DNA from: Prevotellaceae bacterium
Lineage (GTDB): Bacteria; Bacteroidota; Bacteroidia; Bacteroidales; UBA932
Length of the DNA: 61,055 bases
Reading direction: 5' to 3'
Assembly (NCBI GenBank): GCA_031278545.1
Contig: JAITKF010000065.1
Location: 1 to 61,055 of the forward strand
The notes under the pieces are model-generated. The model searched no databases and was not told the origin of the DNA. It worked only from the letters and a program-made list of their open reading frames with translations. The position numbers were made by a program, and so were the translations under genes. Below are positions 31,030-40,858 of this stretch, one piece after another. Numbering within the stretch: position 1 is the first letter of the stretch; each line of letters opens with the position of its first letter.

Positions 31030-31093
31030 GCTCATAGTTAAAACAGTTCATAGTTAAAACAGTTCATCGCTAAAACAGTTCATCGTTAAAATT
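31030..31093 (+). repeat. Four 16-bp tandem repeats
   Basis: Units starting at 31030, 31046, 31062 and 31078 follow GTTCATAGTTAAAACA with small variation; a partial unit precedes at 31023. They lie between lnt and the end of the FISUMP pseudogene. Confidence 0.85.
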
Positions 31094-36796: not shown

Positions 36797-38869
36797 TCAC
36801 GCGTGCTCGATTCTTATGCGTGCATCTACTGCTATTATTCTCTTCGTGTCGCCCAGTAAGGGATTCAGGTCTATTTCGGCGATTTCGGGGGCGGTTTCGC
36901 AGAGGGCGGAGACGCGTGTTACGATTTCGGCAAGGAGTGCGATGTGGATGGGTTTTTTTCCGCGCAGGCCTTGCAGGATTTTGTATCCGCGCAGCCGGCG
37001 TATCATGTCTTCCGCTTCGTCGAGGAAGATGGGGGACAGGCCGGCGCTTACGTCATGCAGGGCTTCGACGAAGATGCCGCCCATGCCGCAGAGGATTGTA
37101 TGGCCAAAGGGTGTTTCGCGTTTGGCTCCGATAAATAGTTGCAGCCCGTTTAACATCGGTTGTAGCAACACAGCGGTAGCGCCGGGGATGCGTATCATCC
37201 GGTTAAATTCGTTGCGGACGACGATTTTGCTGAAGATATCCAGCGTTACGCCGCCTACGTCGGATTTATGAACGGGGCCTACGACTTTCATTGCTATGGG
37301 GAATTTCAGGCGGTCGATGGCTTTTACTGCTTCGTCCGGCGACGTTACGATGATTTCGTCGACGCGCGGGATGCCTGCCGCGTCGAGCAATATCATGGTC
37401 TTTTCGGGGGAGAGGTAGCCGTTGCCGGCGTGTTCGATGATGGTACGGATGGCATGGCGGTCGATAAATTCTTCTTGTTTATTCCCTTTGGTGTCTTCGC
37501 ACTGGTATCCTTTTGTGTTGATGACTTTGGCCAGTGCGTGGGCGAAGATGACTTCGTCGGGGAAGCATACATGGCCTTTGTTGATAAAGGCGGTGATTTC
37601 TTCGCGTGAATTAATGACTGTCGGCATGATGGCGTATATCGGTTTAGCGGAAAGGCGCGTGTGTTTGTCGATGACGTCGTAGACGTCGAACACGCGTGCC
37701 AGGCCGGGGTTGCCGAAGATGACGGCTGTGGCGTCGATGTTCTTAAAATCATTGCGGCAGGCGTCGAGGATGGCATCTAACTGTTCGGCGGTGCCGGTGG
37801 CCAGGAAGTCTATCGGGTTGGTGACCGATGAGCCCGGATGGAGTTTTGCGAGTAGTTCCTGCGCTTTGTTGTCCTCGATGGGCGGTACGTTGATGCCATC
37901 ATAGGATAACATGTCGGTCATCATTACGGCCGGACCGCCGGCGTGTGTTATGATGGCTATGTTTTTGCCTGTCGGCAGGGGGTGCATCAGTACGCTGGCG
38001 ACGTTTATTAATTCCGTCCGACTGTAGCAACGGATGATTCCCGCTTTGCGGAATAATGCTTTGACTGCCATGTCGGGGCTGGCCATTGCACCTGTGTGCG
38101 ATGAGGCGGCACGGCTGCCTGCTTCGCTGCTGCCGGCTTTTATTGCCGCAATCCGGGCTCCTTTGCGGAGAAGCGACGAGGCGTGTTTTAAGAGTTTTTT
38201 TGGGTTACCGATGTGTTCGATGTAGAGCATTTTTACGCGGGCGCTTTTGCCTTCGCGGTAGGTGAGGTCAAGATATTCCAAGACGTCTTCTACGCCTGTT
38301 TGTGCGCTATTGCCGACCGAGTAGACGCTTGAGAAGCGTAGGCCGTTCTGTATGGCCGCGTCGAGGATAAAGACCGCCGTTGCGCCCGAGCCTGTAATAA
38401 AATCCACGCCATCGGGTGATAGCGTGGGGACGGGCGTGGTGAAGATACCGGCGTAGTGCGTCGTGAGCATGCCGATGCAGTTTGGGCCTATCAGGCATGC
38501 GCCGGCGTCGTTAGCCGCCTGTACGAGTTGCTCTTCTAAGGCTGCGCCGGACGCGCCGATTTCGTGGAATCCGGCTGAGAGTACGATGAATGCTTTGGTT
38601 GCTTTCCGCTTTGCCAGCACGGTTATCGCTGCCGGACAGACGACCGCCGGAATGGCCAGTATCGCCAGATCGACCGGCGGCAATGCGTCGACCGTCCGGA
38701 ACGTCTGCACTCCCTGTACCCGGTTGGATTTTGAATTGACCACATATAAGTCGCCTTTGAAACCATGATCCAGTAGGTTTTTCAGTACCTTACCGCCGGG
38801 CTTTTGTATATCTTTTGAGCCTCCTACTACGACTATACTCGCGGGCGTCAATAGTTCTTGTGTTATCAT
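36797..38869 (-). CDS. acd: Acetate--CoA ligase (ADP-forming), fused alpha-beta
   Basis: 690 residues. The CoA-binding Rossmann domain (about 1-130), the succinyl-CoA-ligase-like domain with the phospho-His segment SSHTGAMA (about 255) and the ATP-grasp beta part (about 470-690, AMKVVGPVHKSDVGGV) occur in one chain. It converts acyl-CoA, ADP and phosphate to the acid, CoA and ATP, a substrate-level step in fermentation. It heads the run containing aroB, aroD, aroE and truA. Its promoter lies about 16 nt upstream. Confidence 0.92.
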   Translation of the reverse strand: MITQELLTPASIVVVGGSKDIQKPGGKVLKNLLDHGFKGDLYVVNSKSNRVQGVQTFRTVDALPPVDLAILAIPAVVCPAAITVLAKRKATKAFIVLSAGFHEIGASGAALEEQLVQAANDAGACLIGPNCIGMLTTHYAGIFTTPVPTLSPDGVDFITGSGATAVFILDAAIQNGLRFSSVYSVGNSAQTGVEDVLEYLDLTYREGKSARVKMLYIEHIGNPKKLLKHASSLLRKGARIAAIKAGSSEAGSRAASSHTGAMASPDMAVKALFRKAGIIRCYSRTELINVASVLMHPLPTGKNIAIITHAGGPAVMMTDMLSYDGINVPPIEDNKAQELLAKLHPGSSVTNPIDFLATGTAEQLDAILDACRNDFKNIDATAVIFGNPGLARVFDVYDVIDKHTRLSAKPIYAIMPTVINSREEITAFINKGHVCFPDEVIFAHALAKVINTKGYQCEDTKGNKQEEFIDRHAIRTIIEHAGNGYLSPEKTMILLDAAGIPRVDEIIVTSPDEAVKAIDRLKFPIAMKVVGPVHKSDVGGVTLDIFSKIVVRNEFNRMIRIPGATAVLLQPMLNGLQLFIGAKRETPFGHTILCGMGGIFVEALHDVSAGLSPIFLDEAEDMIRRLRGYKILQGLRGKKPIHIALLAEIVTRVSALCETAPEIAEIDLNPLLGDTKRIIAVDARIRIEHA

Positions 38870-38893: not shown

Positions 38894-39124
38894 AGGATTT
38901 TTGCTGATTTATCAATAACCTTCGGGAAGTCGTAAGGGGCAGGGTGCACTTGTACGAGAAGGCAGGGCGAGATGCAAGGGGCGGGGTGATTACATGGAAT
39001 GGTGGTGCCGTGTTAATATGTACAAGCGTGTTATATATCATGTGTAAATAGTATATTATAAATGAAAAGTATTATTTTATGATTTATGATGATGTCTTTA
39101 ATTGTTTAAATACTCATCAAAATA

Positions 39125-39245
39125 TTGGGACGGCGTGTCGCTGCGAGCGACGACTCGTCCCAATGTTGGGACGGCGTGTCGCTGTGAGCGACGACTCGTC
39201 CCAATGTTGGGACGGCATGTCGCTGTGAGCAACGGCTCGTCCCAA
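39125..39245. repeat. Three 41-bp tandem units, each a palindrome
   Basis: Units at 39125-39163, 39166-39204 and 39207-39245. Each has TTGGGACG pairing with CGTCCCAA, and most have an inner GTCGCT/AGCGAC stem around a GTG or GCG loop. The third unit has CAACGG in place of CGACGA. A degraded fourth unit starts near 39248. The array is flanked by ACTCATCA (39112-39119) and TGATGAGT (39292-39299), an outer inverted repeat. Confidence 0.9.
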
Positions 39246-39276
39246 TGTTGTGACGGTGTTATAAGATATTCAATAG

Positions 39277-39304
39277 CTCATCATAATGTTGTGATGAGTT
39301 TTTT
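39277..39304 (+). terminator. Terminator-like hairpin at the right end of the array
   Basis: CTCATCA (39277-39283) and TGATGAG (39292-39298) form a 7-bp stem followed by TTTTTT. Confidence 0.65.
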
Positions 39305-39547: not shown

Positions 39548-40858
39548 ATGAAAAAAATCTTTTTAATTATCGAACGTGAGTTTACTACACGTGTAAAGAA
39601 AAAATCATTTATCATTACGACCATTCTTGTTCCTGTGCTGATGGCCGCTTTGATGGTCGTGCCTTTCCTGATGCAGTCGTTTTTGAAGGATACGGAGAAG
39701 AAGACTATTGCCGTCCTTGACTGCTCCGGGCTGGCGGCAGGGGCGTTGATGAATACCGATGAATTGACGTTTGTTTTTTTCCCCGATGCCTCGCTCGATT
39801 CCCTGAAACAGGTTTTCCGGTCGCAGTCGTGGTATGCTATTGTGGACATCGGCGCGATGGACGACGAGCGTAATGTGCCGATAGGCCTGTACTCGTTTAA
39901 GCAAACCAACCTCGATGTGCAGAAGTATGTCGAGGCAAGTATGGAGAAGGCCGTCGAGCGTTATAAATTGGAGGGGTATAATATTCCCGGTCTTGATGCT
40001 ATTATGGATTCGATTAGGACGCAACTTAGCCTCAAAACTTATTTGTGGGACGATGATGGTAAGGAAAAGGCCAGTTTCACCTTCCTTTATATGGGGGTTT
40101 CTTATCTTTTCAGTTTTTTGATATATATATTTATCGTGATGTTCGGCAGCATGGTCATCCGTGGAGTGATAGAAGAGAAGGCGAGCCGGATAGTCGAAGT
40201 GATAGTTTCCTCAGTAAAACCGTTCCAGTTGATGATGGGTAAGATCCTCGGCGTTGCCTCCGTCGGGCTGCTTCAGTTTATTATATGGGTCGTGCTGACC
40301 TTTGTTATTTACGTAGTCGTGCTGCAGACGTTGCTCGATCCGTCGGGCGCCGCGCCGGCGGCCGGGATGTCAGCCGGGGGGTCGCCGCTGCCGCTGTCTG
40401 CAACGACGGATATTCGCGCGATGCTTGAGAGTATAGATTTCGTGTCGATCATCGGGGCGTTTATTCTATATTTCCTTTTCGGGTATTTGCTTTATGCATC
40501 GCTGTATGCCGCCATCGGGTCGGCGGTCGAGAACGAAGCCGATACGCAGCAGCTTGTCCTCCCTGTAACGATTCCGTTGTGCATAGGCTTGTTTATTATG
40601 CTGCATACGTTTCAGTACCCGAACAGCGCCCTGTCGTTCTGGTGTTCGATTATTCCCTTCACGTCGCCGATGGTGATGATGGCGCGCATCCCCTTCGGCG
40701 TTCCGTTATGGGAAGTCGCCCTGTCGCTGTCGTTGCTGCTGGTTACGTTTGTCGGTATGGCATGGATAGCCGGTAAAATCTACCGCGTCGGTATTCTGAT
40801 GTATGGCAAGAAAGCAAGTTTTATGCAAATATGGCAATGGCTGGTGCGTAAAGGGTAA
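39548..40858 (+). CDS. ABC-2 type transporter permease (NatB-like)
   Basis: 436 residues. One N-terminal helix (about 20-42), a large extracytoplasmic segment (about 45-180) and five further helices (about 185-420). The cytoplasmic motif GVIEEKASRIVEVIVSSVKP is typical of the ABC-2/NatB family. Such permeases pair with an ATPase to export sodium, drugs or lipids. The usual ATPase partner is not adjacent: a non-coding array precedes the gene and a flippase-like protein follows after 49 bp. Confidence 0.88.
   Translation: MKKIFLIIEREFTTRVKKKSFIITTILVPVLMAALMVVPFLMQSFLKDTEKKTIAVLDCSGLAAGALMNTDELTFVFFPDASLDSLKQVFRSQSWYAIVDIGAMDDERNVPIGLYSFKQTNLDVQKYVEASMEKAVERYKLEGYNIPGLDAIMDSIRTQLSLKTYLWDDDGKEKASFTFLYMGVSYLFSFLIYIFIVMFGSMVIRGVIEEKASRIVEVIVSSVKPFQLMMGKILGVASVGLLQFIIWVVLTFVIYVVVLQTLLDPSGAAPAAGMSAGGSPLPLSATTDIRAMLESIDFVSIIGAFILYFLFGYLLYASLYAAIGSAVENEADTQQLVLPVTIPLCIGLFIMLHTFQYPNSALSFWCSIIPFTSPMVMMARIPFGVPLWEVALSLSLLLVTFVGMAWIAGKIYRVGILMYGKKASFMQIWQWLVRKG

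Follow-up and report, generated by a model that had tools for sequence, protein, structure and literature searches.

The question raised by this locus is what kind of element places a regular series of small hairpins in a gap between two genes that are read away from each other. The window, by which we mean all of the DNA analysed (61,055 nucleotides, contig JAITKF010000065.1 of the Prevotellaceae bacterium assembly GCA_031278545.1), belongs to a draft genome of 2.08 Mb that is 79% complete, and the gene-free gap in it is 678 bp long (Table 1). The best match of the permease bordering the gap, at 63% identity, is in the metagenome-assembled genome Bacteroidales bacterium UBA932.

Table 1. Positions of the array, its parts and the flanking genes in the window.
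Feature	Position	Strand	Remark
Flanking gene, CoA-binding / succinyl-CoA ligase-like / ATP-grasp protein (ADP-forming acyl-CoA synthetase type)	36797..38869	-	divergent from array
AT-rich leader	39030..39111	+	the other two copies have a similarly AT-rich stretch ahead of the array
Palindrome P1, CATCAAAATATTGGGACG	39115..39132	.	decayed 5' border, like left border of the other two copies
Unit 1, 41-bp hairpin, TTGGGACG-GCGT-GTCGCT-GCG-AGCGAC-GACT-CGTCCCAA-TG	39125..39165	+	
Inner hairpin H1, GTCGCTGCGAGCGAC	39137..39151	.	
Palindrome P2, CGTCCCA-ATGT-TGGGACG	39156..39173	.	core common to RAYT-linked repeats of the same family
Unit 2, 41 bp	39166..39206	+	loop C>T relative to unit 1
Inner hairpin H2	39178..39192		
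Palindrome P3, CGTCCCA-ATGT-TGGGACG	39197..39214	.	
Unit 3, 41 bp	39207..39247	+	inner-stem G>A (AGCAAC), 5' arm uncompensated
Inner hairpin H3	39219..39233		contains GAGCAAC
Palindrome P4, CGTCCCAATGTTGTGACG	39238..39255	.	half decayed
Degenerate fourth unit	39248..39288	+	41-bp register kept
Terminator-like hairpin	39275..39300	+	11 pairs, 3 of them GC, then T-run
Palindrome P5, CATCATAATGTTGTGATG	39279..39296	.	3' border; terminal palindrome type found in 3/3 copies
Flanking gene, ABC-2 family transporter permease	39548..40858	+	

Tandem Repeats Finder (TRF) placed an array at 39121-39256, with a period of 41 bp, 3.3 copies and a score of 230. Each unit carries the outer arms TTGGGACG/CGTCCCAA around an inner hairpin GTCGCT-GYG-AGCGAC, and the letters that span the unit joints make up a palindrome, CGTCCCA-ATGT-TGGGACG. 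Its series runs through the array as five members (P1 to P5), spaced at exactly 41 bp. With up to three mismatches allowed, CRTCAYAAYGTTGTGAYG has 10 matches in the window, on both strands and all within the array, against an expectation of 0.54, and the series is therefore not a product of chance. The DNA folds of units 1, 2 and 3 have energies of -14.2, -14.2 and -10.0 kcal/mol (z of -4.6, -5.1 and -2.5). The initial annotation, which had described three 41-bp hairpin units lying head to tail, is thus borne out by TRF, by the sequence and by the fold z-scores. It had also read the substitution in unit 3 as a paired change; AGCGAC>AGCAAC stands opposite an unchanged GTCGCT, so that a pair is lost and the unit folds more weakly. 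The proposed outer inverted repeat is present as such, in the form of ACTCATCA (39112-39119), TGATGAGT (39292-39299) and a terminator-like hairpin, but the two sequences belong to the 41-bp palindrome series itself, as its opening and closing members, both decayed, rather than to a separate frame that encloses it; the predicted fold joins TGATGAGT to the neighbouring CTCATCA and not to the distant ACTCATCA.

Searching for the unit elsewhere uncovered two further copies in the same genome. The three copies (3 units in the window, 6 on contig C8 and 4 on contig C86) hold 13 full units, all intergenic. They have in common a left border of the type yRTCAAAATwTTGGGACG and a degenerate last unit followed by a terminal palindrome of the CRTCAYAAYGTTGTGAYG type, whereas their flanks are not shared; in all three, the array points away from the 5' end of a divergent gene beside it. 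The terminal palindrome of the C86 copy lacks a following T-run. A distinct version of the unit occupies each locus, and the units are homogenised within loci, with a mean identity of 0.950 within a locus against 0.912 between loci, a difference that none of 5000 label permutations reached. Shared borders combined with locus-specific units indicate an element that was dispersed and later amplified or homogenised locally. Slippage or unequal exchange, put forward earlier in the form of a replication-slippage hot spot, is the present mode of change that the within-locus likeness and the differing unit numbers support, but simple slippage alone fails as an explanation, because two other copies have the same border types. 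A second palindromic array with a 41-bp period, GGAATCCGACGCGTCGGGAAACGTCCTGCGCTGTTCGGGAA in five copies and of unrelated sequence, lies elsewhere in the genome (C86:23548-23751, L044 3548-3751); a DUF6261 gene adjoins it, as one also adjoins the C86 copy of the window element.

Comparison of the 13 known units shows 10 variable columns, of which 8 are among the 13 unpaired positions and 2 among the 28 paired positions (Fisher p 4.5e-4). This distribution fits maintenance of the hairpin, either by selection or by template-switch correction of quasi-palindromes, and is compatible with either.

The exact unit pattern had no match in viral contigs or in 84,980 species genomes, a collection from which records very near the host genome may be missing, and blastn of the element returned nothing in phages, plasmids or 8 congeners. 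One weak blastn match in a genome of another genus of the same family (G115) falls inside a palindromic repeat array (L009). The window array aligns with this array over 32 nt with a score of 37, where 300 dinucleotide shuffles gave at most 28. Scores at shuffle level were obtained with RAYT hairpins of unrelated sequence and with further phased arrays from the host genus, and the array directly beside the G115 RAYT gene aligns less well (score 28, equalled by 1 of 300 shuffles).

Of 399 genomes of the family, 39 (from 5 of 26 genera) contain the core of the joint palindrome, CGTCCCAN{1,7}TGGGACG, at up to 32 copies each (the maximum being in G115), while a control with the pattern written backwards gave scattered matches, at most 3 per genome. 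The loop is almost always 5 nt across the family and 4 nt in the window. The arms flanking the core vary in their letters but keep their pairing: in the family-wide set 46 double-changed cells were counted against 19.2 ± 3.9 in shuffles (0 of 500 reached this number), and the covariation of the arms was 0.298 against a maximum of 0.139 when they were slid against each other. Since the arms lie outside the search pattern, their covariation is independent evidence for a conserved hairpin. The compensatory stem change belongs to the family-wide set; in the window array itself the change in unit 3 is uncompensated.

In three genomes of related genera the core is linked to genes for RAYT-type enzymes. 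Palindromes stand on both sides of the gene in G323 (at 23-101 bp, with more at 306-357 bp) and in G270 (at 236-515 bp), and in G115 a series of 8 palindromes with a spacing of 52 bp starts 40 bp past the stop codon. For all three proteins the only NCBIfam match is NF047646, REP-associated tyrosine transposase, with values of 1e-6 to 2.5e-11 that are below its cut-off, and the only Pfam match is PF01797 (Y1_Tnp); the scores of both are low but significant. The HxH motif and the AYxxxN tyrosine motif are invariant in five RAYT-like proteins of the relatives. Two of the three RAYTs are 55% and 44% identical to the first, and two RAYT-like proteins with different hairpins are 17% identical to it. 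Judged from gene and palindrome positions, the layout in the three genomes is a REPtron arrangement. Y1_Tnp matches were found in 19 of the 22 genomes sampled from the neighbouring genera, namely in all 11 carriers of the core and in 8 of 11 non-carriers; RAYTs are thus common with or without the core, so that it is the flanking arrangement and not mere presence that counts as evidence. Other RAYT-like genes of the family (at L315, L318, L324, L325, L326 and L328) have different hairpins of their own nearby, several of them on both sides, and apparently form several further enzyme-repeat pairs.

We favour, with moderate confidence, the reading that the feature in the window is an orphan REP/BIME-type array of an atypical Bacteroidetes kind, which has no detectable RAYT and is now being amplified locally. 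RAYTs (TnpA-REP), which are Y1 HUH enzymes, would have cut and rejoined single-stranded hairpins and so seeded copies in several intergenic gaps, after which the enzyme would have been lost from the host species. Both the past mobilisation and the loss are steps that we infer, the loss because the draft genome is incomplete. The 41-bp unit with its two palindromes would then have been amplified in tandem and homogenised at each locus, presumably by slippage, unequal exchange or conversion, and the last palindrome of the window copy may double as an intrinsic terminator.

The likeness to REP/RAYT systems lies in intergenic palindromes, in covarying arms and in the occurrence of the same core at Y1 HUH genes within the family. 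The differences are a host species in which no RAYT was found, the small number of loci and the head-to-tail 41-bp units, which stand in place of palindromes that are single, paired or spaced at 51-52 bp. No Y1_Tnp was detected in the host genome (79% complete), the eight congeners have only two, both short (about 160 aa) and IS200-sized, and tblastn with the three RAYTs found none in 1.11 Mb of sequence from the genus. Against the orphan REP reading, besides this absence, stand the three loci, which are far below a typical REP copy number, the lack of an unpaired GTAG or CGTC tag, the loop of 4 nt in place of 5, and the extent of the RAYT-linked likeness, which covers 14-32 nt of GC-rich palindrome. 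The architecture of the array needs no REP origin either, because arrays of the same architecture and unrelated sequence are common in the genus. The array is ordinary in kind, being REP/BIME-like, and unusual in form, being RAYT-less and built of head-to-tail 41-bp units.

Enterobacterial BIMEs resemble the window array in that palindromes follow one another regularly between genes; they differ from it in the alternating orientation of their palindromes and in their GTAG tags. As read from the sequence, no unpaired GT[AG]G tag is present at the window palindromes, which are thus not GTAG-tagged REPs. The closest known kind for the three RAYTs, likened by the description of its hairpins, is TnpA-Y1 subclass 2.6 (PMC6006769), which is centred on Bacteroidetes and whose atypical flanking hairpins lack GT[AG]G and recur at other places in the genome. 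The super-family of CGTC-tagged REPs was also considered. In these, CGTC is unpaired and followed by a stem of 8-9 bp and a CCA tail, and most form head-to-head dimers (PMC3733652). The window palindromes resemble them in having CGTC at the palindrome edge, but here CGTC lies within the stem, paired with GACG, and there is neither an unpaired CGTC tag nor a CCA tail; this assignment was rejected.

A different origin is suggested by the other repeats of the genus, in which intergenic arrays are both dense and regular in period. Counting arrays with a period of 15-100 and a TRF score of at least 100, we found 75 intergenic arrays (6.6 per 100 kb) in the host genome and seven congeners (1.13 Mb), of which 55 have a period no more than 1 bp away from a multiple of 21, as compared with 12 (0.7 per 100 kb), 2 of them near such a multiple, in 1.75 Mb from other families, a roughly tenfold difference in density; these figures are estimates, because genes were called by a simple ORF rule and heptamer arrays (7, 14) feed the 21-bp class. 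With TRF arrays masked, 8-mer repeats in the congeners still peak at lags of 21, 42 and 63 (100, 53 and 40 counts). Palindromic cores are significant (p<0.05) in 33 of 103 arrays with periods of 18-90, about one third. Most arrays have unique sequences, with a few families within a genome, and the class has no preference for gene orientation (28 of 196 co-directional, 10 of 57 divergent and 10 of 51 convergent gaps). A coding origin of the 21- and 42-bp periods is disfavoured, as other multiples of 3 (24, 27, 30, 36 and 39) show no enrichment and a period of 41 occurs often in the host genome.

Several individual arrays were also recorded. Arrays of 21- or 63-bp period and unrelated sequence lie in intergenic gaps of the host genome (L047 6082-6280; L045 17955-18031; L053 7105-7327; L057 10973-11166). 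Five 42-bp arrays of one congener, G005 (L089, L092, L093, L096 and L097), share a 21-bp half, GCTCTCYCGCACSGTGCGGGG, sometimes in opposite orientation, and differ in the other half. Heptamer arrays in congener gaps, AAGAGTT/AACTCTT (L024 780-1092) and AATTACG/CGTAATT (L033 1253-1455), form long inverted repeats around other palindromes. The window itself has a 16-bp tandem repeat, TCATAGTTAAAACAGT in 3.8 copies, outside the called genes at 31032-31091; among the intergenic arrays of the host genome this period is the other one to recur (7 arrays). A tandem array lies within 300 bp of 24 of the 144 contig ends sampled in the host genome and congeners, against 2.2% of 300-bp segments drawn at random from contig interiors, a sign that assemblies may break at long or variable arrays.

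The window array could accordingly be a phased intergenic satellite with no tie to REPs, the genus making local arrays whose units measure about two helical turns or a multiple of that (21, 41-43, 63) and the CGTCCCA match being a convergence. The clustering near multiples of 21, the masked 8-mer lags and the mostly unique array sequences all fit this explanation, which we nevertheless judge rather unlikely: copies of the window element are dispersed and have border types in common, and, unlike the other phased arrays, its unit matches a REP array of a different genus better than any shuffle does. The phased satellite and the orphan REP array can both hold.

Orthologous positions were compared as well. 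In the sister species G004, the gaps beside the orthologous genes contain different arrays, one of 21 bp that lies upstream of the permease and one of 23 bp that follows the alcohol dehydrogenase. In a further congener (G002), the orthologous gap upstream of the ABC permease (L025) holds a palindromic array with a spacing of about 21-22 bp, which shares TGTCGCTsCGAGCGAC with the inner hairpin of the window (score 27, reached by 0 of 200 shuffles) and is the only exact match of this core outside the host genome among the congeners searched. A shared core at an orthologous place is suggestive of an ancestral site; it is not used as main support for the argument, because it covers 16 nt and was first noticed by eye.

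A minisatellite-bearing MITE that a DDE transposase mobilises at its outer inverted repeats would account for the layout of leader, array and tail, for the outer inverted repeat and for three intergenic copies of variable unit number. It has a precedent in Porphyromonas gingivalis, where MITE464/PgRS and BrickBuilt are dispersed intergenic elements with a tandem repeat of 41 nt (PgRS) or 23 nt (BrickBuilt) and border sequences; long stem-loops are predicted for BrickBuilt, and the terminal inverted repeats (TIRs) of both match IS5-family elements (PMC4596501). These elements share with the window array an internal tandem minisatellite with leader and tail, the likeness to PgRS being one of layout and unit length, but they have IS5-like TIRs and none was seen at the window array borders. 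We regard a MITE as improbable, since the outer repeats form part of the internal palindrome series with its 41-bp spacing and differ between copies, no target-site duplication is visible by eye, the borders TCATCAAAATATT / CATCATAATGTTGTGATG are unlike the reported TIR GAGACTGTTGCA or GAGACCTTTGCA, and no parent IS came to light in an incidental look.

The initial annotation had also offered a protein-binding array. In an iteron-like or nucleoid-protein version, dyads at 20.5 bp would put a dimer on one face of the helix, and the dyad spacing of the window, the clustering of periods across the genus and the concentration of variable columns in unpaired positions would agree with it. Half-period dyads are, however, automatic in any palindromic tandem repeat, and since they are a mathematical consequence of such arrays their spacing was not used as evidence. 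The unrelated sequences of the arrays are ill-suited to one sequence-specific protein, no candidate binder was found, and we consider such a lattice very unlikely here. The suggestion of a bound protein would be nearest the mark with a REP transposase as the binder, acting on hairpins in single-stranded DNA, a candidate favoured by the presence of the core palindrome beside such genes in related genera. A small structured regulatory RNA, the third proposal, running from the AT-rich leader to the terminator-like hairpin, which is the sole such site in the gap, is scarcely credible: the RNA fold of the whole stretch (-102.6 against -58.8 ± 4.2 in shuffles, z -10.5) and the direction of the array away from the divergent neighbour in all three copies speak for it, but beyond the fold it has no positive support, as promoter-like sites in the gap are at shuffle level (5 against 3.5 ± 2.0), the four weak Rfam matches are all far below the gathering score, the C86 copy ends without its T-run and the array class shows no preference for gene orientation.

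On a wider scale, we tentatively propose that the genus has an undescribed class of satellites, intergenic palindromic arrays with sequences of their own that are quickly replaced and have units of multiples of about two helical turns, and that the window array is a dispersed member of it. Archaeal Borg genomes, in the portion of the report drawn on here (PMC9879509), likewise have many tandem-repeat arrays with sequences of their own, rapid turnover and a partly intergenic location; those repeats are A-rich and perfect, about half lie within genes, and, unlike for the arrays of the genus, a clustering at multiples of 21 bp is not reported in that portion. A limited literature search found no description of the period rule. 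The rule is measured and is more surprising than the array itself, any cause for it being conjectural.

For this uncultured Bacteroidales lineage, the orphan REP reading would tie an unexplained intergenic array to REP/RAYT biology, and it would show a possible fate of REP repeats once their enzyme is no longer detectable. The three related genomes offer concrete enzyme-repeat pairs that are open to in vitro testing. The periods of the genus raise the question of how bacterial minisatellites acquire their unit length, and the proposed satellite class, if real, would mean that DNA is gauged by helical turns, whether by a duplication machinery or by a bound protein lattice.
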